Shown here: one piece after another, positions 10,000-47,605 of the stretch
How positions within the stretch are numbered: position 1 is the first letter of the stretch
How the letters are laid out: each line of letters opens with the position of its first letter
Source: a virus
Strand: one strand, 5' to 3'
Virus record (IMG/VR): IMGVR_UViG_3300031576_000075
Span: 1-48,354 of that record
Length of the DNA stretch: 48,354 nucleotides
Translations under genes and position numbers: made by a program
Notes under the pieces: model-generated
Database searches by the model: none
Told to the model about the DNA's origin: nothing
Seen by the model: the letters and a program-made list of their open reading frames with translations, nothing else

Positions 10000-10463
10000 T
10001 GGCTGAGCCTCAAAGCATGGCGAGCGTGAATGCCGTTTTGGACACGTTTGCTCCCGGCTGGACTTTGGATTGTCTCTCCCGACTCCACTGTAGTCCCTTG
10101 TGGCTGCGCGGTCCCGAAGACCGCGCATTGATTGTGCGATTGAACCGGGATCGGCTCTGGCTTGCCGGTGCAGGCCATCGCTTGGGAATGGGCGGGGTTA
10201 CCGAACAGGCTATCGTCCAGTTGGTACTCTGGTGTCGTGATCAACCGCGAGTTCCGATGGCGTGGTGGCTATACGCCTGTTCGGAAAAGATCGGCCTGGG
10301 CTCGTCCGAAACGATCCGATTGCTGAAGGCCAGCGACTACGGCGACCCGGCCCGAACCTGCTGCGTCCTGTGCGGAGCAGCCAACCCGACGGACTGGTGG
10401 TCGCTGGCAAAGGTTCTTGGCCCCTGCTGCTGGATGGGGCGGTGTAATGAGGTACGTTCATGA
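9999..10463 (+). CDS. Hypothetical protein (154 aa)
   Basis: ATG 9999 overlaps the previous stop (ATGTGATG). The protein is Trp/Cys-rich (LWLRGPEDRALIVRLNRDRL, and CCVLCGAANPTDWWSL near the C-terminus). A zinc site is possible. No family recognised. Its last codons overlap the thyX start. Confidence 0.5.
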   Translation: MAEPQSMASVNAVLDTFAPGWTLDCLSRLHCSPLWLRGPEDRALIVRLNRDRLWLAGAGHRLGMGGVTEQAIVQLVLWCRDQPRVPMAWWLYACSEKIGLGSSETIRLLKASDYGDPARTCCVLCGAANPTDWWSLAKVLGPCCWMGRCNEVRS

Positions 10464-23090: not shown

Positions 23091-26000
23091 ATAAGCGATA
23101 CACCTAACCCCTCCAGCGACGACACCCGCTCACGCCTGCGCGAGACCAGGGCTCAACTGCGCCTGGCCCAGGCCGAGTACCAACTTCGCCGGGTTGAGCA
23201 GTCGCGCAAACTCCTGGAAACCTACTACGGTGACGACTGGCTCAGTGGCATTGACGCTCGTGAGATCTTCCTGCGCCAGTCGCAGGGGCAGCAGAGCGTC
23301 TTCGCTTCGTTCGCCTCTCCTTCCGACCGCGCCGGTGGCCACAACTGGCCCCTGTGGCGCACCGAGCAGGACCTTGGCCGACTGCGCCAGCAAAGCCGCG
23401 TCCTGGTCGACACCAACTCCTATGCCGAAGGGCTGCTCGACAACCTCACCAACTACATCATCGGCAAGGGCTTCTCCTACAAGGCTGCCACCAAGGAGCA
23501 CACGCCTGATGCCGATCCAGAGCAAGCGGGCAAACAAGACCCGCAGCAGCTGAAGCAGTTGGTTGCAGCAGTACAGGACGTGGTTGATGGGTTCCTGAAG
23601 ACCAACCGATGGAACGGGGTCGCCAACCCCTTCGCGGACGTGGTGATTGCGGCCACCCGGGAGCAGGAGACGTTCCGTCGGGTCAAGCGCGATGGCGAAG
23701 CGTTCGTGCGATTGTTTTTTCTGGACAACGGCCTTACGCTGACGCGATGGATTGAGCCGGAGCAGGTCACCAACCCGCCGGGCGCGAGGCGTGAGGAGGG
23801 CTGGACCTACGGCATCCAGCATCCGATGGACCCGTACGAAGACGTCGAGCGTCGCCAGTCCTATTGGGTAGCCTACCAGGATCTGACCGTTCAGCACGGC
23901 CCTCACGTAGACACGGGGGAGCAGGTCGACGCGGACCAGGTGATACACATCCGCGACCGCAACACGGATGCGGCCGTGAAGAGGGGTAAACCGTTCTTCT
24001 CGTTCGACACGCTTGACGCTTTGCGCCGGGCCTCGAAGCTTCAACGCAACAACTCGCTGGGCGCCGCCATCCGGGCGGCAACAGCGGAAATCTGGAAGCA
24101 TGACACGGCGACCAAGGCTGAGCTGCAATCGTTCTCCGACAGCCAAGCCGACTTCCGTGTGGTCAGTCCCACCACGGGGCGCACGGAGAACGTCGAGCAC
24201 ACAACCCCGGGCACGATCCGTCGCATCCCCGCCGGCCAAGAGCCCGTGTTCATGCCCGAGAGCAGCGGCGCCAGCGAACACCTGGCGGTTGCTCAAGGCG
24301 ATCTGCGCCAGGCTGCCAGCGCCGCCTGTGCGCCGGAGTACATGGTCGGCAGCAACGCCGAGAACGCCGACTACAGCTCGACCAAAGAAGCCGGCGCCCC
24401 CTTCGTGCGCAAGGCCGAAAGTGAGCAGGAGCATTACAAGGCGGCGTTCCTGGCCGTGGTATGGCGAGCGGTGCGTTGGGCAGTGGAGTGCGGTCTACTC
24501 CCCCCGCAGGCATTGAAGCTGATTGAGATCCAGGTTGAGGCGCCTGCCGTGCTGCATCGCAACGAGCTGGAGAAGGCGCAAGGCGACCAGATCAAGGTGC
24601 AGGGCGGGTGGAAGAGCCAGCAAACCTGTGCGATGGAAGATGGGTTGGACTGGGAAACGGAAGCGGTCAATATCGAGGAGTACAAGGAGAGGTTCGGTCA
24701 ACAGGGGCCGCAATTGCCCATGCCCGGCGAAGAGGGCGAGGAGGGCGACGACCAGGGACAGGAAGGAGAGCCGGGGCCGGGGCAGGACGAAGGCCAGGAT
24801 CAAGGCCAGGGTGGAGAGGATCAGAATCAGGGGCAGGGGCAGGACGAAGAGCTTGACGACGATGACCTCGGCCCTCTTGAGGCGGTAGCGGAGAGTTGGC
24901 TCTACGAGGCCAAGGACGAATCGCAGAACTACTTCGTAAACCTGCTCGACGAAGGGGCGGTTGCAGTCCACGAAGCAGAGGGTGACCGCGAGCCCACCGC
25001 CGAGGATGATCCCGAGGCTGCCGCGGGGCTGATGGCCGACATTCTCTATGGCCTGTATGGCGATGCGGCCCTGGGGTTGCTCCAGGCTGAAGTCACGAAA
25101 GAAGTGCGGGAGGCCAAGGATTCTAGCGGCCACAACCACGATAACGATGGCAAGTTCACCAGTGGCGGGGGTGGGGACGCGAAGAAAGGTCGCAAGCCCG
25201 GAAAGTCGAAAGAACCGACGGACGAACCATCCGGCGGCGCCGCAGCGAAGGCGGCTGCGACGTCTGAGCCGTCCGCGGCGAAAGAGCCGCACGAGATGAC
25301 GCGAGAGGAATTCCGTGCGGCTCATCCGGTTCGGCGTGGCGATATGGAGGACTACGTCAAGTCTTACGTCGGCCAATACAAAAAAGGCAAGCCTGGAGTG
25401 AAGTTCGACTTACAGCGTCCCGATGGGAGTGGAGAGGCTGTCTACCGTGATAAGAGCGGCAAGCCGGTCGCTGTCGTCGCCTTTAACCCTTCCGCCGTTA
25501 CGGACATGGCCGTATTGCCGCAAGCCAGAGGCAAAGGCGCAGTCAGTCAGTTGCTTGACGTTATCAAAAAAGAAAAGGGCATTGTCGCCATCAAAGGCCC
25601 GTACACGGAAGCCGGTGCAGCCGTTGCTCATCGGCGCATCGTCAAGCAAGCTCTCGCTGCCGGTAAGCACGTACCATCCAAAGTCCTGGCCGACTACCCC
25701 AATCTTGTGGTCGACGGCGGAAAAGTCAACTCGAAGAACGCGGCTGCCGCCGGGGAGCCGGTGCGGGAATCCTTGCTCCTGGAGGCGTGGACCGAGATTG
25801 ACCACCCGCGCGGCAAGGGCGGCCGGTTCATCCCCAAGGGGTCCGCTCAGGCCGTAGCAGCCGCCAGGGACGCCATCGGCCGGGTCCTCAAGGGGGACAC
25901 CAGCGGGGCATCCGCCGAGAAGGTGTTGGAGCATCTCAACATCTTGACCGTGGCGCAACTGCAAGCGCTGCACAAGGAGCATGGCCAGAAGGCGCCCGGC

Positions 26001-26720
26001 CGACTGCGTCAGCAACTGGTGGACGGGATCAAGGCTCGACTGGAAGCGGGCAAGGCGCCCAAGGAGCCGGTGCCGGCACCCAAGCCCCCATCGCGACGGG
26101 AAGTTACGTCCAAGGTGTTCCGGGACAAGATCGCCAAGTCGCCGCACCTCTCGGAATCGCAGCGGCAAACCTACAGTGCTGCTGTCGACCGTGTCGTCAA
26201 GCGCATCCCGGAAAAGGCTCTGGAGCACATGGCCGGGCACGTGTCTCGCGTGAACTTTCACCAGTCCGCTGAGGCGTTGACCGGCGCCTTGGCGGACTTG
26301 AGTCCCAAGGTGCGAGAACTTCAGGCCAAGGGATACTTGGTCGGTGGTGCATACCAGGGGAGCCAAAAGAAGCTGCACCTGGATGGCCTTTTCAAGGGGC
26401 CCAAGACGTCGCCGGACTTGGTGGCTGGCAGCGATCATAGCATTCACGGCCCCTACGCTCACGAATTGACCCACGGCATCGACGGGCCATCGCACCGCTT
26501 CTCGCAGACGCCGGCATGGACGCAAGCGTGGGCTTCCGAGATTGGCCGATTGCATCAGGACGCGCCGGCAAGGCTGACCAGGTATGCCGAAACCAATCAC
26601 CATGAGGGTTTCGCTGAATTTGGTAGACTGATATACGGCAGTGACGCCAGCCCTGCGGTGATTGAGTCGCGTTTCCCAAAGTGCTCCAAAGTCTTCAAGG
26701 ATAACGGACTATGGCCGTAG
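23091..26720 (+). CDS. Portal protein with C-terminal enzyme-like domains, ATA start
   Basis: The frame opens after TAG 23073; the first codon that fits is ATA 23091, about 10 nt behind GAGG. No ATG, GTG or TTG occurs until ~23550, inside conserved portal sequence (YGDDWLSGIDAREIF, NYIIGKGFSYKA lie upstream). Portal core: VVDGFLKTNRWNG, REQETFRRVKRDGEAFVRLF, QVIHIRDRNTDAAVKRGKPF, ALRRASKLQRNNSLGAAIRA. After an acidic Gln/Gly linker come GKFTSGGGG and GGRFIPKGS spacers, a GNAT-like loop (MAVLPQARGKGAVSQLLDVI) and a zincin-like metallopeptidase motif (YAHELTHGID ... HHEGFAEF). About 1210 aa, far longer than ordinary portals. Confidence 0.85.
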   Translation: MSDTPNPSSDDTRSRLRETRAQLRLAQAEYQLRRVEQSRKLLETYYGDDWLSGIDAREIFLRQSQGQQSVFASFASPSDRAGGHNWPLWRTEQDLGRLRQQSRVLVDTNSYAEGLLDNLTNYIIGKGFSYKAATKEHTPDADPEQAGKQDPQQLKQLVAAVQDVVDGFLKTNRWNGVANPFADVVIAATREQETFRRVKRDGEAFVRLFFLDNGLTLTRWIEPEQVTNPPGARREEGWTYGIQHPMDPYEDVERRQSYWVAYQDLTVQHGPHVDTGEQVDADQVIHIRDRNTDAAVKRGKPFFSFDTLDALRRASKLQRNNSLGAAIRAATAEIWKHDTATKAELQSFSDSQADFRVVSPTTGRTENVEHTTPGTIRRIPAGQEPVFMPESSGASEHLAVAQGDLRQAASAACAPEYMVGSNAENADYSSTKEAGAPFVRKAESEQEHYKAAFLAVVWRAVRWAVECGLLPPQALKLIEIQVEAPAVLHRNELEKAQGDQIKVQGGWKSQQTCAMEDGLDWETEAVNIEEYKERFGQQGPQLPMPGEEGEEGDDQGQEGEPGPGQDEGQDQGQGGEDQNQGQGQDEELDDDDLGPLEAVAESWLYEAKDESQNYFVNLLDEGAVAVHEAEGDREPTAEDDPEAAAGLMADILYGLYGDAALGLLQAEVTKEVREAKDSSGHNHDNDGKFTSGGGGDAKKGRKPGKSKEPTDEPSGGAAAKAAATSEPSAAKEPHEMTREEFRAAHPVRRGDMEDYVKSYVGQYKKGKPGVKFDLQRPDGSGEAVYRDKSGKPVAVVAFNPSAVTDMAVLPQARGKGAVSQLLDVIKKEKGIVAIKGPYTEAGAAVAHRRIVKQALAAGKHVPSKVLADYPNLVVDGGKVNSKNAAAAGEPVRESLLLEAWTEIDHPRGKGGRFIPKGSAQAVAAARDAIGRVLKGDTSGASAEKVLEHLNILTVAQLQALHKEHGQKAPGRLRQQLVDGIKARLEAGKAPKEPVPAPKPPSRREVTSKVFRDKIAKSPHLSESQRQTYSAAVDRVVKRIPEKALEHMAGHVSRVNFHQSAEALTGALADLSPKVRELQAKGYLVGGAYQGSQKKLHLDGLFKGPKTSPDLVAGSDHSIHGPYAHELTHGIDGPSHRFSQTPAWTQAWASEIGRLHQDAPARLTRYAETNHHEGFAEFGRLIYGSDASPAVIESRFPKCSKVFKDNGLWP

Positions 26721-31668: not shown

Positions 31669-31686
31669 GGGGAGGACCCACCGATA
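31669..31686 (+). promoter_or_regulatory. SD plus ATA start of the presumed decoration gene
   Basis: GGGGAGG (31669-31675), 8-nt spacer, ATA CGA. The ribosome-binding site decides the start, because no canonical start codon exists in the preceding 48 nt of this open frame. Confidence 0.75.
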
Positions 31687-32397
31687 CGACTGCTGAACGC
31701 TTCTTCGCGACTCCTGAACCTGCGCAACAACTTCGAGATTGTGGACGACTTCGACTGGTATATCTCGCCCCACCGCTGGACCAATATGACCACCGGTGTC
31801 TCCACGGCCTTCGCCCAGTCGGACGCCGAGCACGGAGTCATCCAGGGCGCCACCCCGGCCACGGACAACATTGACGTGATGGTGCGGTCCACCAACGAAG
31901 TGGCCTTGTTTCAGGCCGATTGCACGATGGTGTTTGAATCGCGCATCCAGTTCACCGAGATCAATGTCGATGACGCCAACGTGGCCGTAGGTTTGGCCGA
32001 CGCTGCCGGCGCTAACCTGCTTTCCAACGATGGCGGGGGCGACAACATCAACAGCTCGGGCGCCTTGATCTTCAAGGTAGACGGAGAAACCGTCTGGCGT
32101 TGTGCCTGCGAGATCAACGGCACGATTAAAGAAACCCAGTCGGTCCAGACGGCCGGCGGCGCCTCCTATCAGAACCTACGCATCGAAGTGCGAGCGGTCG
32201 ATGGCACCAACGTCGAGATCTGTTACTTCCTGGATGGCAAAGCCCTGACCGACAGCAACAATCTGCCCATCAAGCACACGATCGCTTACGCCAGCGCGAC
32301 GGAAATGCGTGTCGTGGCTGGTTACCTCAAGGCCGGCGGCGCCAACATCGAGACGCTGAACATCGACAGCGTCTTCTTCCAGGCGGGCCGCGTCTAA
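31684..32397 (+). CDS. Virion-associated protein, ATA start (237 aa)
   Basis: The frame opens after TAA 31633; the 16 codons up to 31684 contain no ATG/GTG/TTG. ATA 31684 stands 8 nt behind GGGGAGG. The first canonical start (GTG 31741) has no SD and would cut off the first 19 residues. The protein is beta-rich (FQADCTMVFESRIQFTEINV, SSGALIFKVDGETVWRCACE, EVRAVDGTNVEICYFLDGK), resembling concanavalin-like or decoration proteins. It lies between protease and major capsid, the usual place for a decoration protein. Exact family unknown. Confidence 0.78.
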   Translation: MRLLNASSRLLNLRNNFEIVDDFDWYISPHRWTNMTTGVSTAFAQSDAEHGVIQGATPATDNIDVMVRSTNEVALFQADCTMVFESRIQFTEINVDDANVAVGLADAAGANLLSNDGGGDNINSSGALIFKVDGETVWRCACEINGTIKETQSVQTAGGASYQNLRIEVRAVDGTNVEICYFLDGKALTDSNNLPIKHTIAYASATEMRVVAGYLKAGGANIETLNIDSVFFQAGRV

Positions 32398-32457: not shown

Positions 32458-33672
32458 ATACCCGGCACGCGCTGCATCAACTACCGCGAGATCAAGCACC
32501 TGGTCGAGTCCCTCGGAGCGGACGACGCCTACCGTCACCTGTCCGAGGCGCTGGAATCCAAGGCCCTGCGAGCTGAGGACTTCACCCTGCGAGAGTGCGC
32601 CGAAGCGTTCATGGGTCGGGAGTGGGTCGACAATCTCCACCCCAAGCGCGGCCGCTACTACAGCGGGGCCCTGCTCGAAGCCGATGGGTCCGCAGTCGCC
32701 TTCAGCCAGTTTTCCAACATAACAGGCCAAATTTTCTTCTCGATGGTCAAGGATGGCTTCGACCAGGAAGTGCAACCCTTCTCCCAGCTGATTCCCACGA
32801 AACCGACTCAGATTCTCGGAATGGAAAAAATCCCGGGGATTTCCGAGGTTGGAGATGAATTCAGCGTCATCGGCGAAGGGATGGAATATCCGAACTTCGG
32901 CGTGTCCGAGGACTACGTCGAGATCGCCAGCAAGGAAAAACGCGGCGGAACCGTTCCGGTCACGAAAGAGGCCATCTACGCGGACAAGACGTCCGACCTG
33001 CTTCCCAAGTGTCGCGGACTCGGCAAGTGGCTGAAAATCAACAAGGAAAAGCGGCTCATTGACGTCCTCATTGACGAGAACGCCGGAGCCAAGTCGGCCG
33101 CGCTCGGAGGTCACAGACTGCACTGGAAGGGGACCAGTTACGCCACCTACCAGGCAACGACTCCCTGGGACAACGTGACCACGAGTAATGCCCTGGTCGA
33201 CGAAAGCGACCTGGAACAGGCATGGCTGACGCTGGTGGGGATCACTGACCCCTACACGGGCGAGCCCATCCCACAGACGCCGACACACATCATCGTCACG
33301 CCGCAGAACGTCATGACCGCCTACCGCATTCTCCGCGCTATCCAGGTGCGGACGCACGCGGGCGGCTATCCGACCTCTGGCAATCCGATGGAGACGACTT
33401 CCCCTTCGGCCCTGGACGTGATCGGACTGCAAAACCTCAAGGTGGTCACGAGTCAGCTCCTGGCCGCTCGGGCTGCGACGGATACCGACTGGTGGATGGG
33501 CTCGCCGGCCAAGGCGTTCGCTTACTTCAGCTGCTGGGACGTTACTACGGAGGAAGCCCCTCCGAATAGTAGGGAAGCGTTCCATCGCGATATCATCTTC
33601 CAGTTCAAGGCTTCCGAGATGGGTGTCGCTGGGACGCTGGAGCCCCGCGTCATGAATGAAAGTCGTGCGTAG
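32458..33672 (+). CDS. Major capsid protein, ATA start
   Basis: 405 aa starting ATA 32458, 7 nt behind GAGGGA. The first ATG (32611) would remove 51 residues that clearly belong to the protein (HLVESLGADDAYRHLSEALE). Core segments: QIFFSMVKDGFDQEVQPFSQ, GISEVGDEFSVIGEGMEYPN, GVSEDYVEIASKEKRGGTVP, THIIVTPQNVMTAYRILRAI, LQNLKVVTSQLLAARA and FHRDIIFQFKASEMGVAGTL. Length, position behind protease and the C-terminal fold fit a HK97-like capsid protein. A short piece of it is duplicated in the next gene. Confidence 0.85.
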   Translation: MPGTRCINYREIKHLVESLGADDAYRHLSEALESKALRAEDFTLRECAEAFMGREWVDNLHPKRGRYYSGALLEADGSAVAFSQFSNITGQIFFSMVKDGFDQEVQPFSQLIPTKPTQILGMEKIPGISEVGDEFSVIGEGMEYPNFGVSEDYVEIASKEKRGGTVPVTKEAIYADKTSDLLPKCRGLGKWLKINKEKRLIDVLIDENAGAKSAALGGHRLHWKGTSYATYQATTPWDNVTTSNALVDESDLEQAWLTLVGITDPYTGEPIPQTPTHIIVTPQNVMTAYRILRAIQVRTHAGGYPTSGNPMETTSPSALDVIGLQNLKVVTSQLLAARAATDTDWWMGSPAKAFAYFSCWDVTTEEAPPNSREAFHRDIIFQFKASEMGVAGTLEPRVMNESRA

Positions 33673-35769: not shown

Positions 35770-36133
35770 ATAGCAAGAGATCTGACCCTGGCTGATGGAC
35801 AGCTTGGCACCACCGCCGCAACGCTGATTGCAGGCACCAGTGTGCCCGCAGGTTTCGTAGCCGTCCTGTTCAGCAACATCACCGCGCTAGACCAAACGGT
35901 AGTCCTGACGTTTCAGCGATCGGGCGGCACCGCTCGCCGCCGGGACCCTGTTTCGCGATCTGGAGACCGGCGAAGAGTGGTACTACGACGGTGCTGGCTG
36001 GAAGCGGATCGCCACGGGCCATGCTCTGATCGCAGCCGAGATGGCTGCAACACGTGAAACCATGGAGCAGGGCCAGCAGCAGATGCTGGTCCTGCTCGAA
36101 GAAATGCGTGATCTGCTGCTGCGCATTGCGTAG
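35770..36133 (+). CDS. Virion protein, ATA start, frameshift in the middle
   Basis: ATA 35770 lies 6 nt behind GGAGGTG. The in-frame GTG 35761 overlaps that SD and has none of its own. The first frame reads ARDLTLADGQLGTTAATLIA, FVAVLFSNITALDQTVVLTF. From ~35930 the coding signal moves to the +1 frame (GTLFRDLETGEEWYYDGAGW, EMAATRETMEQGQQQ, ending MRDLLLRIA, stop 36133), which has no start of its own after the TGA at 35906. Either two gene pieces were fused by deletion or a base was lost. Confidence 0.6.
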
Positions 36134-36140
36134 ACGTCGA

Positions 36141-36156
36141 AGGAGGCTAACCGGTA
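36141..36156 (+). promoter_or_regulatory. SD AGGAGG and GTA start
   Basis: AGGAGG (36141-36146), 7 nt, GTA (36154). A TAA in the same frame at 36148-36150 leaves only CCG before GTA, so translation in this frame cannot start further upstream. Confidence 0.75.
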
Positions 36157-36372
36157 GCGACCCGCATTCAGAATCTCGACGTAGCTCTCGACCAAGTGGC
36201 CAAGCAGTTGCGCGATTTGACGCTCAATCCCAAGCCGGATTACAGTGTGGACGGCAAGCAGTACAGCTGGTCGGCCCACTACCGCACCTTGCTGGAGATG
36301 CAGAAGACGCTACGCCAGGCTCGCCAGATGGAAGACGGCGCCTTCGAGGTCCGATCCCGAGGGACCGTCTAA
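36154..36372 (+). CDS. Small head/tail-region protein, GTA start (72 aa)
   Basis: GTA 36154 is preceded by TAA CCG in frame and by AGGAGG at 7-nt distance. The protein is natural from its first residues (ATRIQNLDVALDQVAKQLRD, YSWSAHYRTLLEMQKTLRQA) and ends EDGAFEVRSRGTV. The next canonical codon (GTG ~36196) lacks an SD and would remove 14 residues. Helical; likely a connector-region helper. GTA is the codon a UAU-anticodon initiator would read with the same first-position wobble by which fMet-tRNA reads GUG. Confidence 0.75.
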   Translation, partial: VATRIQNLDVALDQVAKQLRDLTLNPKPDYSVDGKQYSWSAHYRTLLEMQKTLRQARQMEDGAFEVRSRGTV

Positions 36373-36384
36373 GAGGATACCCGC

Positions 36385-36615
36385 ATGAACATCGAAGTGG
36401 TTGCCAAGATCGAGGTGTTTCAGGGCCAAGATGGCGAGATCTATGTATCGGGGCCCCTGGATGGACCCATTGGCAAGAGCCTGTGTACGGGCATGCTGGA
36501 GCGGGCCATCCGCAAGGTGGAAGCCCATCAGTCGAAGACGTCGGGACTTGTCGTGGCCCAGGGATCGATTCCGCCTGCGCCTGTGAATGGGACCAATCGC
36601 GTGCGTCAGGGATGA
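36385..36615 (+). CDS. Hypothetical protein before tRNA (76 aa)
   Basis: ATG 36385 after AAGAGGAT. Beta-hairpin-like N-terminus (IEVVAKIEVFQGQDGEIYVS) and helix (MLERAIRKVEAHQ). Unknown function. The tRNA gene begins 10 nt after its stop. Confidence 0.55.
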   Translation: MNIEVVAKIEVFQGQDGEIYVSGPLDGPIGKSLCTGMLERAIRKVEAHQSKTSGLVVAQGSIPPAPVNGTNRVRQG

Positions 36616-36625
36616 CGCAACCGAA

Positions 36626-36697
36626 ACCAGGGTAGAGCAGAGGCAGCTTGCCAGTTTTATATGCTGGAGGTCGCAGGTTCGATTCCTGCCCCTGGCA
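36626..36697 (+). tRNA. Initiator-like tRNA with anticodon UAU (reads AUA)
   Basis: Cloverleaf by eye. Acceptor ACCAGGG (36626-36632) with CCCTGGC (36690-36696): six pairs and an A1.C72 mismatch. D-stem GAGC/GCTT gives A11:U24. Anticodon stem CCAGT/GCTGG, loop TTTATAT with anticodon TAT (36658-36660). Variable loop AGGTC. T-arm GCAGG-TTCGATT-CCTGC, discriminator A, no encoded CCA. An unpaired 1:72, A11:U24, the GAGCAG..GG.AGCT pattern and AGGTC variable loop are as in bacterial tRNA-fMet; elongators normally have Y11:R24. One hallmark is missing: the three G:C pairs of the anticodon stem are reduced to one (30:40). Confidence 0.88.
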
Positions 36698-36727
36698 CTC
36701 TGATGAACGAACCGAAACCCAAGCAGC

Positions 36728-36741
36728 GGAGGTGATCGATA
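36728..36741 (+). promoter_or_regulatory. Extended SD GGAGGTGAT and ATA start
   Basis: GGAGGTGAT is fully complementary to the usual 3' end of 16S rRNA. It is followed by CG and ATA (36739). The TGA inside the SD (36733) is in frame with the ATA, so the frame cannot start upstream. It lies 31 nt behind the tRNA. The same arrangement occurs at 43408-43420. Confidence 0.8.
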
Positions 36742-37197
36742 CGCGGACGACGCTATACGGTAGCAGGGATTCAAACGGCGGTGGCAGCCAGTCCTGGCAA
36801 GAGCATGCTGGGTATTACCAGTACCACCGCCATCCGGCCACAAATCTACTACATCGGTATTGGCTGCCACGACACACCCGCTGACAACTCCCTTCAGTGG
36901 TTTATTCAGCGCAGCACGGCTGCTGGAACGAATACAGCGGTGACGCCCGTAGCGCAAGATCCGGGGGATCCAGTTTCGACGGCCGGCGGAACCAGTAATC
37001 ACACCGTCGAACCAACTTATACTTCCGCAACGGTCCTCTGGCGCATGCCCCTCAACCAGCGTGCCAGTCACAGTCTGTATCTGGAGCCCGATAGTGCCTT
37101 GGTCGCCCCAGCCACGGCAAACAACGGCCTAGGGCTTTACGTGATTCACGCCAGCTTCGTAGGTGCCGTTTCTGGCACTCTCTTCTTCCAGGAGTGA
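36739..37197 (+). CDS. Virion protein, ATA start (152 aa)
   Basis: ATA 36739, six nt behind GGAGG; the frame reads TGA TCG ATA, so only ATA is available. The residues before the first canonical codon (GTG 36781) are typical of the family (GRRYTVAGIQTAV). The rest is beta-rich: GITSTTAIRPQIYYIGIGC, SLQWFIQRSTAAGTNTAVTP, WRMPLNQRASHSLYLEPDSA, YVIHASFVGAVSGTLFFQE. It resembles small phage head/tail structural proteins. First gene after the tRNA. Confidence 0.78.
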   Translation: MRGRRYTVAGIQTAVAASPGKSMLGITSTTAIRPQIYYIGIGCHDTPADNSLQWFIQRSTAAGTNTAVTPVAQDPGDPVSTAGGTSNHTVEPTYTSATVLWRMPLNQRASHSLYLEPDSALVAPATANNGLGLYVIHASFVGAVSGTLFFQE

Positions 37198-40298: not shown

Positions 40299-40394
40299 AT
40301 AGCCATCGGCATCGTCACAGGGGTGGTCGTCTCGCTCAGCGCGGTCAGCGAATGGGGGTTCCCAAAGCTTTCTCGACCGACCATCCGCGCTTGA
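40299..40394 (+). CDS. Truncated paralogue of the next ATA gene (31 aa)
   Basis: ATA 40299, 6 nt behind GGGGAG, one codon after the preceding gene's TGA. Reads (start)-AIGIVTGVVVSLSAVSEW and ends at TGA 40394. Its first ~14 codons match those of 40535 on, with many synonymous differences (ATCGGCATC against ATTGGAATT). Two independent copies thus keep ATA at the same place. The copy is truncated. Confidence 0.6.
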   Translation: MAIGIVTGVVVSLSAVSEWGFPKLSRPTIRA

Positions 40395-40534: not shown

Positions 40535-40963
40535 ATAGCAATTGGAATTGTCACTGGTGTCGTTGTTAGCCATTCGGCAATTTCATTATTTGCCAGAATC
40601 CGCGGTGCCGGCGGGGCGTACATAACCCAGGCGTCGATATCGACCATCGCCTACGCGGTCCGGGACCTCACCAACGGGACCACGGACAGCACTGGCACGT
40701 TCACGATTTCCACCACCGTTTTCAACGACCTTCAGACGACCGACCTTCGCTGGACCAAGGACGCCGTCGGCTACAACTTCCTGGCCACGATTGCCGCAGG
40801 AGGCTTTGATCGCTTCACCGTCGCGGACGCCAACGCGCCCGTTTCGCACAAGGTAACGTCGCATCGCTATCAAGTCTCGGTGCGATTCACCCCCACCGCT
40901 GGTGCCAGCAGTGCCTTTGTGATCCCCTTCCAGTTCAGCCCGATCCCCACATGGACCGCCTAG
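40535..40963 (+). CDS. Virion protein, ATA start, no canonical start in frame (142 aa)
   Basis: ATA 40535, 8 nt behind GGAGGG. The reading frame has no usable ATG/GTG/TTG over most of its length and is therefore easily missed by gene finders. It reads AIGIVTGVVVSHSAISLFAR, ISTIAYAVRDLTNGTTDSTG, ISTTVFNDLQTTDLRWTKDA, YNFLATIAAGGFDRFTVADA, HKVTSHRYQVSVRFTPTAGA and ends FSPIPTWTA at TAG 40963. Beta-rich, typical of small tail or connector proteins. Codon use is the strongly GC3-biased pattern of its neighbours. Confidence 0.82.
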   Translation: MAIGIVTGVVVSHSAISLFARIRGAGGAYITQASISTIAYAVRDLTNGTTDSTGTFTISTTVFNDLQTTDLRWTKDAVGYNFLATIAAGGFDRFTVADANAPVSHKVTSHRYQVSVRFTPTAGASSAFVIPFQFSPIPTWTA

Positions 40964-40972
40964 GAACTGCTC

Positions 40973-41680
40973 ATGCTCGACATAACCAAGACCTGTGAAC
41001 ACGATTGGCTGTGCTGGGACGGCCTGGAGACGGCCACCTATCGCTCCGTGCGCACCAGCGGCACGATGGTTGAGTACGTCGTGGACGCTGCTCTCCGGCG
41101 GGCCCCGACGCGGCGTGAGCTGGCTGCCTCCAATGGCGTCTACCAGGCCACGGATACGGTGTGGCTCATCCCACGGGTGGTTCTTGATGGAGCCCTGTCC
41201 GCCGAAGGTCAGCGTCCCAAGCCGCGCGACACCATCACGCCCAGCGAAGGCGGCGAGTGGACGGCTCTCGAAGTTGCCGAAGAAGTCGATCGCACCATCT
41301 ATCGGTTCACGACGCGAAACTTGGTCATCCATCTTGACCTGTTCGACGCCATCGACATCGAACGCGCCGGCGTCGTCTACAACAACGCCGGCATCCCAGA
41401 CAAGCAGTTCCCCCCAGAAGGCGGCGGCCGCGTTCTGTACTCTGCCCTGCCCTGCCGCGTGCAGAAGGACGAGGAGCGTATTGCCGACGAACGACTCTTG
41501 CGCGGCGAAGAGGTGCCGTACACGATCTTTCTGTCCCGCCAGGTGGTCATCGACGCGGCCGAGGATCGGGTGAAGTGGACCGACGGCAGCACCGTGCGTT
41601 ACCTCGATATCGTGCGGCTGGTCATGCCAGATAGACTAGATGAATTGCCCCGATTGGAATGCGTGCTCCGGGTGGCGTAG
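40973..41680 (+). CDS. Head-tail region protein (235 aa)
   Basis: ATG 40973. Beta/alpha mix: WDGLETATYRSVRTSGTMVE, YVVDAALRRAPTRRELAASN, DTVWLIPRVVLDGALSAEGQ and a C-terminal VKWTDGSTVRYLDIVRLVMP. Its position before a gp10-like gene suggests a head-tail connector or neck protein. No firm family. Confidence 0.6.
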   Translation: MLDITKTCEHDWLCWDGLETATYRSVRTSGTMVEYVVDAALRRAPTRRELAASNGVYQATDTVWLIPRVVLDGALSAEGQRPKPRDTITPSEGGEWTALEVAEEVDRTIYRFTTRNLVIHLDLFDAIDIERAGVVYNNAGIPDKQFPPEGGGRVLYSALPCRVQKDEERIADERLLRGEEVPYTIFLSRQVVIDAAEDRVKWTDGSTVRYLDIVRLVMPDRLDELPRLECVLRVA

Positions 41681-41690
41681 GGGGTGGGCG

Positions 41691-41867
41691 ATGATGCGCA
41701 GCACGTCAACTGTAAAGGGGGTTACAGTTGAGCCCGCAGACGGTAGGGTGACGGGCAAGGACGGCAGGACGAGGGGGCCGAGGAAGAAGAAGGTGCCATC
41801 TGGAGGCTCAACTGTAACCCCCTTTACAGTTGAGCGGCAGAAGGTGGCGCAGGAGGCCAAGCGATGA
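41691..41867 (+). CDS. Free-standing hairpin/VTGKDG module (58 aa)
   Basis: ATG 41691 (or 41694). The protein is nothing but the module also found in the ParB-like gene: TVKGVTVEPADGRVTGKDGR, then RKKKVPSGG, TVTPFTVERQK, aligned with EGSAPAPPDGKVTGKDGK ... KKKAFGSG ... SAPERQ. It lies between two copies of GCGATGATGCGC (41688-41699 and 41861-41872), the second being the start of the gp10-like gene. It thus looks like an insertion at that gene's 5' end, and it overlaps that gene by 4 nt. Confidence 0.65.
   Translation: MMRSTSTVKGVTVEPADGRVTGKDGRTRGPRKKKVPSGGSTVTPFTVERQKVAQEAKR
41706..41835. repeat. Second pair of inverted hairpins
   Basis: Hairpin 1 (41706-41731): TCAACTGTAA, loop AGGGGG, TTACAGTTGA. 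Hairpin 2 (41806-41835): GCTCAACTGTAA, loop CCCCCT, TTACAGTTGAGC. The stems match each other but not those at 4.4 kb. The G/C loop and the right flank TGAGCGGCAG are the same in both places. Confidence 0.85.
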
Positions 41868-42256
41868 TGCGCGGCAGCTTCAAATGGGATGGCGAGCGTG
41901 CCTATCAGGAGGTCCTGGACGCTGGCTGGGACGGCATCCGCCAGGCCACCGTGTTTCTGTGGCAGCAGTGCCAGTCGGCCATCAACACCCCCAGCTCCAG
42001 GCCCTACAGCGAGCCCACGCCGCCCGGCAACCGCGTCCCTGGCGAGCCACCACGGAAGCGCACCGGCTGGTTCCAGGCAAATGTCCTTTACACGCTGGAT
42101 CGTGCAGCGCTTACCGGTCGTGTCGGGCTCGGCCTGGGCGCTCGGTATGGTCTTTTTCTGGAGCTGGGCACGCGCCGGATGCTGGCCCGGCCCTGGCTCC
42201 TGGCAACGCTGAAGAAGGTTTGGGCGCAGCTTCAGGCCCTTGCTGGGAGGCCGTAA
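41864..42256 (+). CDS. HK97 gp10-like tail-completion/neck protein
   Basis: ATG 41864. The pattern RAYQEVLDAGWDGIRQATVF, TPSSRPYSEPTPPGNRVPGE, TGWFQANVLYTLDRAAL, GLGLGARYGLFLELGTRRML, ARPWLLATLKK fits HK97 gp10-type proteins (the YGLFLE.GT...ARPfl signature). These join head and tail. Length 130 aa is normal. Confidence 0.78.
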   Translation: MMRGSFKWDGERAYQEVLDAGWDGIRQATVFLWQQCQSAINTPSSRPYSEPTPPGNRVPGEPPRKRTGWFQANVLYTLDRAALTGRVGLGLGARYGLFLELGTRRMLARPWLLATLKKVWAQLQALAGRP

Positions 42257-42259
42257 TCC

Positions 42260-42697
42260 ATAGCGGATCCAGTCGACCATGACACCATGGCCGCAGTCCG
42301 AGCCCTCTGGCTGGCCACGCCTGCGCTCATGATGCTCCTGGGCGAGCCACATGCTGGCCGGCTCAAGAGCGGGCAAACCAGCATCTATGCGCATCTCAAA
42401 TGCGAATTGGACCGTCGGGAGTTGTTCGGCACGGGCTTGGCCTGGTCCGATCGTCGTCGAGTAACGCTCAGCATCGTCGGCACTGAAGACGAAGTCCGGA
42501 CGGCCCTAGGCGCAGTCCACGAGGTCTTCAACCTCCGCACCACGTTAACCTACCCGTCCGGGTCGCGCTTTCTCAGCTGGTGGCCGGAGTTTAGCGACCG
42601 ACTGTTCCAGGACGAAACGACACGGCGCGGCGAAGACATCTGGGTCGGCGAGTGCGTCGGCATCGTCTGGTCAGTACGCCCTACACCAGGCGCGTAG
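42260..42697 (+). CDS. Tail terminator-like protein, ATA start
   Basis: ATA 42260 lies 9 nt behind GGGAGG; an in-frame TAA stands two codons before. An ATG at 42287 exists but has no SD and would drop nine residues (ADPVDHDTM). I prefer ATA because of the shared context. The protein (AAVRALWLATPALMMLLGEP, KSGQTSIYAHLKCELDRREL, YPSGSRFLSWWPEFSDRLFQ) has the place and size of a tail-completion or tail-terminator protein. Confidence 0.65.
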   Translation: MADPVDHDTMAAVRALWLATPALMMLLGEPHAGRLKSGQTSIYAHLKCELDRRELFGTGLAWSDRRRVTLSIVGTEDEVRTALGAVHEVFNLRTTLTYPSGSRFLSWWPEFSDRLFQDETTRRGEDIWVGECVGIVWSVRPTPGA

Positions 42698-42783: not shown

Positions 42784-42966
42784 ATGGACGGACACGACGC
42801 GGAACATCCCCTGGCGATGAAGGCGGAGTGGCGGGAACAGTGTGGGACCCGATTGCTCATTGGCCACTGCCCGCAGTGTCGCTATCGACACGCGACGGTA
42901 GAAACGCTGCTGTGGTGTCAGTGCGGGGCATGGATTCAACTCGAACCAGAAGTGGGTGATCGATAG
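42784..42966 (+). CDS. Small zinc-ribbon-like protein (60 aa)
   Basis: ATG 42784. Contains IGHCPQCRYRHATVETLLWC and QCGAWIQLEPEVGDR: a CxxC...CxC finger. Its TAG overlaps the ATA of the next gene (ATAG). A competing frame from 42738 looks unnatural. Confidence 0.6.
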   Translation: MDGHDAEHPLAMKAEWREQCGTRLLIGHCPQCRYRHATVETLLWCQCGAWIQLEPEVGDR

Positions 42967-43394
42967 CGCTTGACAACTACCAGCCAGGGCATACGCTGCC
43001 CGTCAATTTCTTCCTGAACGCGACCGGCCAGGCCTACATCCTAAACGTCAAAGGCTTCGACTTGGAGGATGGCGGCAACCTCATCGAGGTAACCAACACG
43101 CGCCACGCAGGCCGTACTGCCCACTTGGCTGGCCGGGCCATGATGAAGGGCCAATGCACGTTGTCGTTCGACCTTGACAGTAAGCCGTACCTTGCCACCC
43201 CGAACATCCGCTTTGGAACCCGAGGCGTCTTTCGCATGTTCACGAGCCGGCTGGGGACGTCTTACATTGATGTCCCCGCTTCCATCGCTAGCGTGTCCTA
43301 CCGCAGCGCGGTAGAGAGCGAGCTTCAGTGGACCGTGTCGTGGGTGGAAAACGTAGTCCAGGCGACCGGCCTCGTCGACGTCGCCTACGTGTAA
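42963..43394 (+). CDS. Major tail-type protein, ATA start (143 aa)
   Basis: ATA 42963; in frame the DNA reads TGA TCG ATA, so no upstream start is possible, and the first canonical start (TTG 43062) would cut 33 residues (ALDNYQPGHTLPVNFFLN, YILNVKGFDLEDG). The protein is beta-rich: NTRHAGRTAHLAGRAMMKG, FDLDSKPYLATPNIRFGTRG, SVSYRSAVESELQWTVSWVE. It is placed before the tail-assembly chaperones, the usual spot for the tail tube protein. Its start overlaps the stop of the previous gene as ATAG. Confidence 0.72.
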   Translation: MALDNYQPGHTLPVNFFLNATGQAYILNVKGFDLEDGGNLIEVTNTRHAGRTAHLAGRAMMKGQCTLSFDLDSKPYLATPNIRFGTRGVFRMFTSRLGTSYIDVPASIASVSYRSAVESELQWTVSWVENVVQATGLVDVAYV

Positions 43395-43407: not shown

Positions 43408-43420
43408 GAGGTGATCGGTA
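43408..43420 (+). promoter_or_regulatory. Extended SD GGAGGTGAT and GTA start
   Basis: GGAGGTGAT (43408-43416 region), CG, GTA (43418). As at 36728, the TGA within the SD is in frame and rules out an upstream start. Together the two sites differ only in ATA against GTA. Confidence 0.75.
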
Positions 43421-43861
43421 CTCAAGCTCGGAAAAGTCAGCGAAGTACAAGCGCTGGGGCGCATGTGGAAAGTCAGTCGGCTGGAACTGCGATTGGTCCG
43501 GGAATTACGCGACTGGATCGAAGTCAAGGTCAAACGCAAGCTTGAACGCATCGGCCGTTTCTTCGACCGGCTTACGTCGGAAGATCAACTAGCACATCTG
43601 CGATGGGAGTCCTCCATAGCCGACCAGATGGATTCCTTTTCAATCGGCTGCCCGTTGGCTCGCGAATACCTGGCCACGGAGGAAGGCATGGCCTATTTCG
43701 GTCGGCTTATGCTCACAGAACACCACCCGGACATCTCCGAGGATCAGGCTTTCGCCGTGTGGATGGAGCTGGCTGAGTCAGGCCGCTCCGACCAGGTTCT
43801 GGCCGACGCCCAGGGCCGATTGCCCGGCCAGGGAAAAGTCGGGGCCCCGGAGGCGAGTTGA
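43418..43861 (+). CDS. Tail-assembly chaperone G-like protein, GTA start (147 aa)
   Basis: GTA 43418 after an extended SD; frame reads TGA TCG GTA. ATG 43463 has only a weak SD and would drop 15 residues (LKLGKVSEVQALGR) that belong to the conserved start. Body: LELRLVRELRDWIEVKVKRK, FFDRLTSEDQLAHLRWESSI, MAYFGRLMLTEHHPDISEDQ. Place before the tape-measure gene and a slippery GGGAAAA near its end identify it as the lambda G-like chaperone; a -1 shift yields the longer GT-like form. Confidence 0.78.
   Translation, partial: VLKLGKVSEVQALGRMWKVSRLELRLVRELRDWIEVKVKRKLERIGRFFDRLTSEDQLAHLRWESSIADQMDSFSIGCPLAREYLATEEGMAYFGRLMLTEHHPDISEDQAFAVWMELAESGRSDQVLADAQGRLPGQGKVGAPEAS
43831..43837 (+). promoter_or_regulatory. 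Slippery site GGGAAAA for -1 frameshifting
   Basis: In the frame of the chaperone the codons are CAG GGA AAA, i.e. G GGA AAA, a canonical X XXY YYZ heptamer similar to lambda's GGGAAAG. A -1 shift leads without a stop into the next frame (SRGPGGELTGPPG). Confidence 0.75.
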
Positions 43862-45599: not shown

Positions 45600-46886
45600 A
45601 TAGCCGATATCATCACCACCATCCCGCCGGATTCGCCGCCAGGGTCCGGTGGCGTACTCAATCAAAGCGGCATTGGTGGCAACGTCGCCAAGCTGGCGGC
45701 TCGCCCCCAGGGTTGGTACGAGGCCGATGGCTACGAAGAGGATTTCGCCGAAGAGGATGGCGGGCATTGCGTACGCTACTTCCGTGGCCCGTTTACGGGC
45801 CGTCACCAATGGCGTGAGTGGGTCCTGGGTTACTCGACCACGGTGAGTGTTTCGGGACGACCCTTCCTGACCCGCTCGATACCGATGCAGCATCCGGAGC
45901 TGTACTGGCTCTACGCGACATCGGTGAGCTTCACAGGCCAGGGAGCTATTGCTCCCTGGCCTGTCCGGTTACGCGATGGCGATGGCGGGGCCCTGGGGGT
46001 GTTTGATGAGTCGATCGTCTATTTCGACCGAAGTAGTTTTGGAGACAGCCAAACCTGTCTGGCCAAGGTCGAGTACAAGGCGCTGACGTACGAGGTGCGC
46101 ACCGATCGGGAAGTCCTGTCCGGCCTGCCAGGCAGCACGCTAGAGCTGAATCGGTACGTGACGCGGGAGAAGACTTACAACGCCCGGGCCCTGCCGATCC
46201 CCAGAGGGCATCTGAAGTACATTGAGGCCCCGTGGGTAGGCGAGCCGGTTCCAGAAACCGGCTTGCAACTAATTATGCCCACAGCATCCATGAAATACGT
46301 CTGGCATGACGTGCCGGACGAGCCGCGCGTGGCAATTCTTGCGTGCGTGGGCAAGGTGAATGACGCGGTGTTCGACGGCGCCAAGGGATGGCCTGAGTAC
46401 GCCGCAGAAACGCTGCTGTGCTTGCCTCCGGAAACGAAGCGCTACCGTACACCAGTCGGCCGGATCGCCTGGCGCGTTACGTACAACTTTCTGTATCAGC
46501 CTGAAACGTGGAACCGATTCCCGACTGCTTCCGGAGCCTTTGCCACGGTCCGCTGGTTCTCCAGCAGAGGACTGACGTCTGGCTCTCTAACTGGTAGCGT
46601 CAGTGGCTCCCTTTCCGGCCTGCTCGACGGTTCTTCGATCAGTGGCACGTTCTCTGGCACTGTGAACGGCACGTTTACAGGCACCGACGACGGCCAAGGT
46701 ACGCTCACCGGGACGTTTGAAGGCTCAATCTCCGGCACACTCACCGACGGGTCAGGCAGTCGCTCTGTCAGCGGCAATTTCGTCGGCAGCATGACGGTTC
46801 GTCGTAGTCGTGATGGTGAGCGCGTCTACAAAACTACGAATTTCAACCTCCTGTTCACACCGCCCGACCCCATACGCTACCAATAG
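45600..46886 (+). CDS. Tail protein, ATA start (428 aa)
   Basis: ATA 45600, 8 nt behind AAAGGA; in frame TAA lies five codons upstream and no canonical start until GTG 45843, which would lose 81 residues (ADIITTIPPDSPPGSGGV, NVAKLAARPQGWYEADGYEE, HQWREWVLGYSTTVSV). The body (YFDRSSFGDSQTCLAKVEYK, YVTREKTYNARALPIPRGHL, MKYVWHDVPDEPRVAILACV) looks like a distal-tail/baseplate protein. The C-terminal ~75 residues are a Gly/Ser/Thr repeat (SGTFSGTVNGTFTGTDDG). Confidence 0.75.
   Translation: MADIITTIPPDSPPGSGGVLNQSGIGGNVAKLAARPQGWYEADGYEEDFAEEDGGHCVRYFRGPFTGRHQWREWVLGYSTTVSVSGRPFLTRSIPMQHPELYWLYATSVSFTGQGAIAPWPVRLRDGDGGALGVFDESIVYFDRSSFGDSQTCLAKVEYKALTYEVRTDREVLSGLPGSTLELNRYVTREKTYNARALPIPRGHLKYIEAPWVGEPVPETGLQLIMPTASMKYVWHDVPDEPRVAILACVGKVNDAVFDGAKGWPEYAAETLLCLPPETKRYRTPVGRIAWRVTYNFLYQPETWNRFPTASGAFATVRWFSSRGLTSGSLTGSVSGSLSGLLDGSSISGTFSGTVNGTFTGTDDGQGTLTGTFEGSISGTLTDGSGSRSVSGNFVGSMTVRRSRDGERVYKTTNFNLLFTPPDPIRYQ
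45933..45964. repeat. Perfect 14-bp hairpin inside the tail gene
   Basis: ACAGGCCAGGGAGC, loop TATT, GCTCCCTGGCCTGT, encoding TGQGAIAPWPV. Comparable to the other in-frame hairpins, but without their G/C loop. Confidence 0.75.
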
Positions 46887-46906: not shown

Positions 46907-47605
46907 ATATCCGAGCCCACTCTCCCTGAATTAGGCAAGTCCTTCGCCACAGACAAAGCGACCGATCACGGTTATCTGCCGCTCTACGAGCGCTTTCTGG
47001 GCCCCCGGCGTCACTGCCCGATCCGCCTGCTGGAAATCGGTGTCTACCGGGGCGAATCGCTGCGTCTGTGGCGGACCTACTTTCCCCAGGGGCGGATTTA
47101 CGGTCTGGATAGCGACCCGGGCTGCGCACAGCACGAAGAAGAACGAATCAAGATCACCATCGGCGACCAGAACGACCTGGTCTTGCTGGCGCGCATTGCG
47201 ACGGAGGCGGGCCCCTTCGACGTCGTGATTGACGACGGCGGGCACTTGTGGGGGCAGCAACTGGTGTCCCTTATCCACCTCTGGCCTGCTGTGGCCCCGG
47301 GCGGCCTGTACGTAGTCGAGGACCTGCACACCAGCTACCACGAGACGTACCGAGCGGGCGAGACGCGAACTACAGACTGGCTCAAGGGGCTGGTCGACGC
47401 CGTCAACCTGAGAGGACGATCGTTTTACGGTGACCGTGTACGGGACCCGAACTTCGCGGCCCTGGCGCCGCAGCTGGACGAATGGGAACGCACGGTTTTC
47501 GGGGTGCATTTCTTTAAGAGCATCGCGTTCGTGGAGAAGCAGACGGTCGAGCTTGGAGCAGGGCTGTCGTTGGCAACCGGCAACGCCGTCGCGGATTTTG
47601 CTTGA
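46907..47605 (+). CDS. Class I SAM methyltransferase, ATA start (232 aa)
   Basis: ATA 46907 behind CAAGAG. The first canonical start (TTG ~47183) lies beyond motif I, so it cannot be right. Visible: FATDKATDHGYLPLYERFLG, motif I LLEIGVYRGESLRLWR, FPQGRIYGLDSD, motif II/III PFDVVIDDGGHLWGQQLVSL, APGGLYVVEDLHTSYHE. This matches the family of sugar/macrocin O-methyltransferases (TylE/CmcI-like). In a tail locus it might modify host or virion glycans; substrate unknown. Confidence 0.85.
   Translation: MSEPTLPELGKSFATDKATDHGYLPLYERFLGPRRHCPIRLLEIGVYRGESLRLWRTYFPQGRIYGLDSDPGCAQHEEERIKITIGDQNDLVLLARIATEAGPFDVVIDDGGHLWGQQLVSLIHLWPAVAPGGLYVVEDLHTSYHETYRAGETRTTDWLKGLVDAVNLRGRSFYGDRVRDPNFAALAPQLDEWERTVFGVHFFKSIAFVEKQTVELGAGLSLATGNAVADFA

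Follow-up and report, generated by a model that had tools for sequence, protein, structure and literature searches.

Phages with recoded stop codons carry suppressor tRNAs. Like the phage analysed here, they combine a tRNA of their own with a matched change in their own genes, but it is the stop codon that they alter, whereas this phage appears to alter the start signal. Translation in Escherichia coli can be started at UAG and GUC by engineered initiator tRNAs bearing the anticodons CUA and GAC, which are formylated after charging with Gln or Val (PMC2268962). These molecules (U35A36 for UAG, G34C36 for GUC; PMC2268962) likewise join an initiator body to a changed anticodon matched to the start codon; they are laboratory constructs, whereas the tRNA described below is natural and is paired with ~13 genes of the same phage. 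AUA itself is the start codon of Staphylococcus aureus infC, ccpN and citZ, where it lies behind a strong Shine–Dalgarno (SD) sequence as in our phage, and the AUA and AUU sites tested in S. aureus give ~10–30% of the output of AUG (PMC13009471). Unlike our phage, S. aureus uses these AUA starts on single genes whose output is lowered, and the account of them mentions no dedicated initiator tRNA (PMC13009471).

Full-text searches of the open-licence literature on initiator tRNAs, AUA starts and phages turned up no account of a natural initiator whose anticodon is other than CAU. To our knowledge, no such natural initiator paired with start codons of its own has been reported; the components of the system are of known kinds. 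We found and know of no earlier description of a virus that uses a second initiator tRNA to alter its start codons. If the reading proposed below is true, engineered orthogonal initiator tRNAs have a forerunner in nature, and the dependence of initiator identity on the anticodon, position 1:72 and the triple G:C becomes testable, as does the first amino acid of natural proteins. Gene finders that assume NTG starts would then miss or truncate genes of this type, including those for portal and capsid.

An initiator-like tRNA with anticodon UAU

The window (the whole 48,354-base virus record) contains a single tRNA gene:

36626–36697, + strand, initiator-like tRNA; U34 A35 U36 at 36658–36660, fits tRNA models

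ARAGORN, run on the whole window, assigns it the anticodon UAU and places its end at 36698, and Rfam RF00005 matches positions 36626–36697 over the full model with 58.9 bits (E = 2.7e-10). These calls bear out the initial annotation, which had described a well-folding tRNA with this anticodon; folding by free energy alone yields another D-arm (z −1.8), and the cloverleaf depends on the tRNA models. The parsed molecule is ACCAGGG UA GAGC AGAGGCA GCUU G CCAGU UUUAUAU GCUGG AGGUC GCAGG UUCGAUU CCUGC CCCUGGC A.

The initiator determinants considered here (1:72, 11:24, 2:71, 3:70 and the G:C pairs) are those in PMC11231383. Position 1:72 is A1.C72, with no Watson–Crick pair, and the D-stem contains A11:U24, the purine 11:pyrimidine 24 arrangement of initiators; since A11:U24 also occurs in two of the phage elongators compared, it is not unique to them. 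The D-arm (GAGC..GCUU then G) and the variable loop (AGGUC) are of the initiator type. Each of these features had been noted in the initial annotation, as had the loss of the triple G:C, which is evident in an anticodon stem that has A29:U41, G30:C40 and U31.G39 where three G:C pairs at 29–31:39–41 are expected. Among the formylation determinants G2:C71, C3:G70 and A73, the latter two are retained and the first is replaced by C2:G71.

Bacterial tRNA-fMet (CAU) thus shares with the window tRNA the unpaired 1:72, A11:U24, a D-arm of the form GAGCAG..GGNAGCU then G, AGGUC, G30:C40 and A73. The window tRNA differs in its anticodon, which is UAU and not CAU, in C2:G71, A4:U69, A29:U41 and U31.G39, in having no encoded CCA, and in a D-loop two bases shorter than in the model. 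An elongator tRNA-Ile(UAU) combines UAU with a paired 1:72 and Y11:R24; the window tRNA matches it in the anticodon but not in the body.

Bacterial tRNA-fMet genes were gathered from 60 genomes of Pseudomonadota (the phylum of Arsenophonus), and a covariance model made from 17 of them was run on ten sources. With this initiator model the window tRNA obtains 60.4 bits, other initiator-like tRNAs score 65.5–95, and the elongators scored reach at most 46.8. The initiator score minus the generic score is +1.5 for the window tRNA and +13 to +28 for the other initiator-like tRNAs, and is negative for the elongators compared. By these two measures the window tRNA is initiator-like, yet the most diverged of the set. 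The initial annotation had accepted that a covariance-model score could overturn its assignment; the scores obtained favour an initiator.

The combination of A29:U41 with G30:C40 and G31:C39 is common among the collected bacterial tRNA-fMet, and the unusual pair in the anticodon stem of the window tRNA is U31.G39, with G30:C40 retained. Concern about the lost triple G:C therefore seems fair but not fatal, as A29:U41 is already present in alphaproteobacterial-type tRNA-fMet. Judged by its sequence, the tRNA is real and initiator-like.

Three phage tRNAs annotated merely as tRNA-Met(CAU) also score as initiators, with 65.5–75.2 bits (L002 1347–1422, L059 1991–2065 and L060 29595–29671), and phages may carry initiator tRNAs more often than their annotation indicates. 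The window tRNA gene is flanked by an 18-nt direct repeat (36611–36628, GATGACGCAACCGAAACC; 36702–36719, GATGAACGAACCGAAACC; 83%), an arrangement suggestive of its insertion through duplication or recombination.

Candidate AUA and GUA start sites in the structural region

The start codons of the phage's own genes provide evidence beyond that of the initial annotation, including at the gene just downstream of the tRNA. In our gene list, which is an uncurated prediction of this analysis, 13 candidate starts are not NTG (11 AUA and two GUA). All lie between 23.1 and 46.9 kb, in the structural region, and most follow a strong SD:

23091–26720, + strand, portal protein gene; ATA start, modest SD (GAGG, 9–10 nt)
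31684–32397, + strand, AUA-start gene; gggaggacccaccgATA, first NTG at codon 20
32458–33672, + strand, probable major capsid protein gene; AUA start, gagggagaatacgATA, first NTG at codon 52
35770–36057, + strand, AUA-start gene; SD GGAGG, in-frame GTG 35761 falls within the SD
36154–36372, + strand, GUA-start gene; aaggaggctaaccgGTA, in-frame stop one codon upstream, first NTG at codon 15
36739–37197, + strand, gene adjoining the tRNA; AUA start, perfect SD GGAGGTGATC, protein IRGRRYTVAG...
40299–40394, + strand, short AUA-start ORF; IAIGIVTGVVVS..., paralogue of the start of the 40535 gene
40535–40963, + strand, AUA-start gene; ggagggtcgacgcgATA, IAIGIVTGVVVS..., first NTG at codon 116
42260–42697, + strand, AUA-start gene; gggaggccgtaatccATA, stop one codon upstream, in-frame ATG at codon 10
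42963–43394, + strand, AUA-start gene; agtgggtgatcgATA, stop one codon upstream, first NTG at codon 34
43418–43861, + strand, GUA-start gene; gggaggtgatcgGTA, SD −16.4 (strongest of the set), first NTG at codon 16
45600–46886, + strand, AUA-start gene; aaaggaacgatagcATA, SD −5.6, first NTG at codon 82, coding signal from 45603
46907–47605, + strand, methyltransferase gene; ATA start, weak SD (−2.5), first NTG (codon 93) within the domain

At most of these sites ATG, GTG and TTG are absent from the frame for 14–156 codons. The left half of the window, which encodes the helicase, methylases, thymidylate synthase and integrase, contains none of the 13. The ATA at 36739 is in frame, and a stop lies one codon upstream of it. 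In the portal gene, the ATA at 23091 is the only ATA, GTA, TTA, ATG, GTG or TTG before TTG 23559 (codon 157), and portal homology begins at 23361, 66 residues ahead of that first NTG. The SDs at 23091, 45600 and 46907 are weak or modest, yet these sites seem to be the only plausible starts of their genes.

Homology points the same way as the start-agnostic gene finding and the codon-2 Ala excess described below. The 36739 gene has 35 homologues in IMG/VR (some of them near-duplicates), all with ATG at the matching N-terminus, beside a conserved motif. A homologue in MW202566, which has no tRNA, is 44% identical and starts ATG-GRRY where the window has ATA-R-GRRY. Annotated starts of methyltransferase homologues fall within 2–3 codons of the ATA at 46907, and the paralogues at 40299 and 40535 both encode IAIGIVTGVVVS, retaining the ATA although most of their third positions differ. 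The sequence itself shows the tRNA, the start sites and their SDs, the restriction of these sites to the right half, and the ATG that homologues have at the matching place.

The frame at 35770–36057 seems to continue, as phage-protein-like sequence, in another frame at 35909–36133 that has no start codon of its own, and a programmed frameshift or an indel is possible within 35770–36133. Minus-strand ORFs at 40586–42505 that resemble genes lacking NTG were rejected as antisense shadows.

Statistical support for the non-canonical starts

In every ORF of 60 codons or more, each codon lying after the in-frame stop and ahead of the first NTG was examined for a preceding strong SD. A strong SD precedes ATA in 6 of 17 cases, against a background of 204/3942 (5.2%; P = 1.4e-4), and among codons seen three or more times ATA ranks first, ahead of ATG (8/54). 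The corresponding counts in the window are 3/25 for GTA, 2/31 for ATT and 2/46 for ATC, and TTA has no SD support (0/12). On the minus strand of the window no ATA has a strong SD (0/16), and the coding (plus) strands of control phages contain almost none (RcapMu, 0/14; DMS3, 0/9; Rhizobium phage, 0/27; MW202566, 1/15).

A start-agnostic hidden Markov model places the beginning of coding at least 10 codons ahead of the first NTG in 11 of 52 window genes, compared with 7 of 224 in single-strand comparison runs from which the Rhizobium phage minus strand and the G005 plus strand were left out, having converged largely on antisense ORFs (P = 4.5e-5). Ten of the 11 early-coding window genes have ATA or GTA near the predicted start; the model misses the 36739 gene. 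Codon 2 encodes Ala, as in many bacterial proteins, at seven of the 13 candidate starts, a list itself picked partly by SD, against 10.8% expected (P = 1.7e-4), and only 3 of 24 internal ATA codons are followed by Ala. The codon-2 and SD tests are mutually independent. Within predicted genes AUA is rare (28 of 12,625 codons; 6% of Ile codons, with early and late genes alike), and it is enriched at starts. From sequence, the AUA and GUA start sites of this phage are very well supported.

A proposed second start-codon set

The initial annotation had read the molecule as an initiator-like tRNA for AUA, and both the covariance test and the AUA or GUA codons at ~13 gene starts of the same phage favour that reading. 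The phage appears to run a second, private start-codon set, and we consider it probable that a dedicated phage initiator tRNA (UAU) directs initiation at AUA and GUA on late genes. GUA occurs beside AUA with no excess of AUU or AUC, which fits a UAU anticodon and not relaxed use of the host tRNA-fMet.

From these features we infer how the tRNA would be charged, formylated and used for initiation, and what regulatory purpose it might have. The tRNA would be cut from the late transcript, given its CCA by the host and charged with Ile or Met. UAU together with A37 suggests Ile; the initiator body is compatible with Met. The open 1:72 and A11:U24 would allow at least partial formylation, and IF2 would then bring the charged tRNA to the P-site, where it would pair with AUA or GUA 5–9 nt past a strong and often extended SD. 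A set of late, structural-region genes would thereby start at AUA, with GUA read by first-position wobble as ordinary tRNA-fMet (CAU) reads GUG, and early genes would retain ATG, GTG and TTG and be served by the host initiator. C34U is expected to weaken recognition by MetRS. This change and the departures from known initiators at C2:G71, A4:U69, A29:U41 and U31.G39 make charging and formylation of the window tRNA uncertain. Pfam scans of 20 further window proteins identified no initiation factor, formyltransferase, aminoacyl-tRNA synthetase or lysidine synthase. It is possible, if doubtful, that late AUA and GUA genes are efficiently translated only after the UAU tRNA has been made, which would constitute an orthogonal start code, a translational early-to-late switch and a source of proteins with N-terminal formyl-isoleucine in place of formyl-methionine.

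The AUA starts could also be real but read by the host tRNA-fMet (CAU) as weak, near-cognate starts that dampen expression, with the UAU tRNA otherwise employed. Several SDs in the window are extended, and very strong or extended SDs also accompany the non-canonical sites of S. aureus, including the AUA starts of infC, ccpN and citZ (PMC13009471). Near-cognate starts of this kind would be expected on an isolated attenuated gene, with AUU and AUC serving equally well and GUA excluded; the window instead has ~13 sites, two of them GUA (36154 and 43418), a codon that mismatches CAU twice. AUU (2/31) and AUC (2/46) have no SD excess although they are equally near-cognate to CAU, control phages lacking a UAU tRNA have almost no such starts, and portal, capsid and other structural genes require high output. 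We regard decoding by the host initiator as unlikely, and favour the phage tRNA as the reader because GUA is used, AUU and AUC are not favoured, and the portal and capsid genes are among those concerned.

The tRNA could instead be a spare initiator able to read AUG through U34.G wobble and to withstand VapC and other anticodon-loop nucleases, the AUA starts being coincidental. Such a role would agree with the view that anticodon-loop changes in phage tRNAs evade tRNA-targeting host defences and with the attack of VapC on tRNA-fMet (PMC10264068), as well as with the UAU initiator-like tRNAs of phages lacking AUA starts. It leaves the AUA and GUA starts and the 35 homologues with ATG at the same position unexplained, and is very improbable. 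Still less credible is an ordinary elongator tRNA-Ile(UAU) for AUA codons: ARAGORN calls the tRNA Ile and the predicted genes do contain 28 AUA codons, but the initiator features, the initiator-model score and the concentration of this rare codon at starts all point away from it. An assembly or base-calling artefact, or mispredicted starts, in what is a single metagenomic record with genes predicted in this analysis, can practically be dismissed given the many independent sites with SD, codon-2 Ala and homology, and coding frames that stay open through them.

Relatives and probable origin of the tRNA

The closest DNA relatives of the window tRNA are phage tRNA-Met(CAU) genes that share its A11:U24 D-arm. 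Those of Rhizobium phage RHph_TM3_3_3 and Erwinia phage phiEa21-4 are ~83–85% identical to it over 53–59 nt; both are initiator-like, with A11:U24 and a near-identical anticodon-stem sequence, but have the anticodon CAU in place of UAU. The plus strand of the Rhizobium phage, unlike the window, has no AUA-start enrichment. With such relatives, the window tRNA would most simply derive from a phage initiator whose anticodon changed from CAU to UAU.

The initiator-UAU pattern has an expectation of 0 in shuffled sequences and occurs in one of 398 Pseudomonadota genomes and in only four other IMG/VR records, which argues against chance. These four represent three viruses, as two of the records look like the same virus (L004 2341–2414, L018 3772–3845, L019 4204–4280 and L020 3022–3098; two have C1.U72). 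A search of IMG/VR for the initiator pattern with GAU or AAU as anticodon gave no match. No excess of AUA starts was detected in the other phages with UAU initiator-like tRNAs in which it was tested (G005, G001 and L019); the tRNA alone thus does not imply start recoding, and in phages lacking AUA starts it may serve another role, e.g. resisting anticodon nucleases (PMC10264068). Exact-peptide scans (capsid and TerL) and the strict tRNA pattern identified no close relative of the window phage in IMG/VR, where near-identical records may have been hidden from the scans, and its capsid and portal proteins have no tblastn match in INPHARED. The sequence evidence comes from a single virus record, and these searches gave no near relative in which the tRNA and the AUA starts could be seen to be inherited together.

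The single Pseudomonadota case is the Arsenophonus endosymbiont of Aleurodicus floccissimus, which has a near-perfect tRNA-fMet with UAU (L007 4492–4568) in addition to a normal CAU copy. UAU initiator-like tRNAs are also present on contigs binned as Kapaibacterium and a cyanobacterium (L005 6067–6136 and L006 753–826).

Other features of the window

The gene at 10460–12253 matches thymidylate synthase at both ends, with an HNH endonuclease region between them (residues ~229–386) that looks like an intein-type insertion. The intergenic segment at 41707–41837 contains a palindromic stretch around CAACTGTAAAGGGGGTTACAGTTGAG, which is present twice in inverted orientation.
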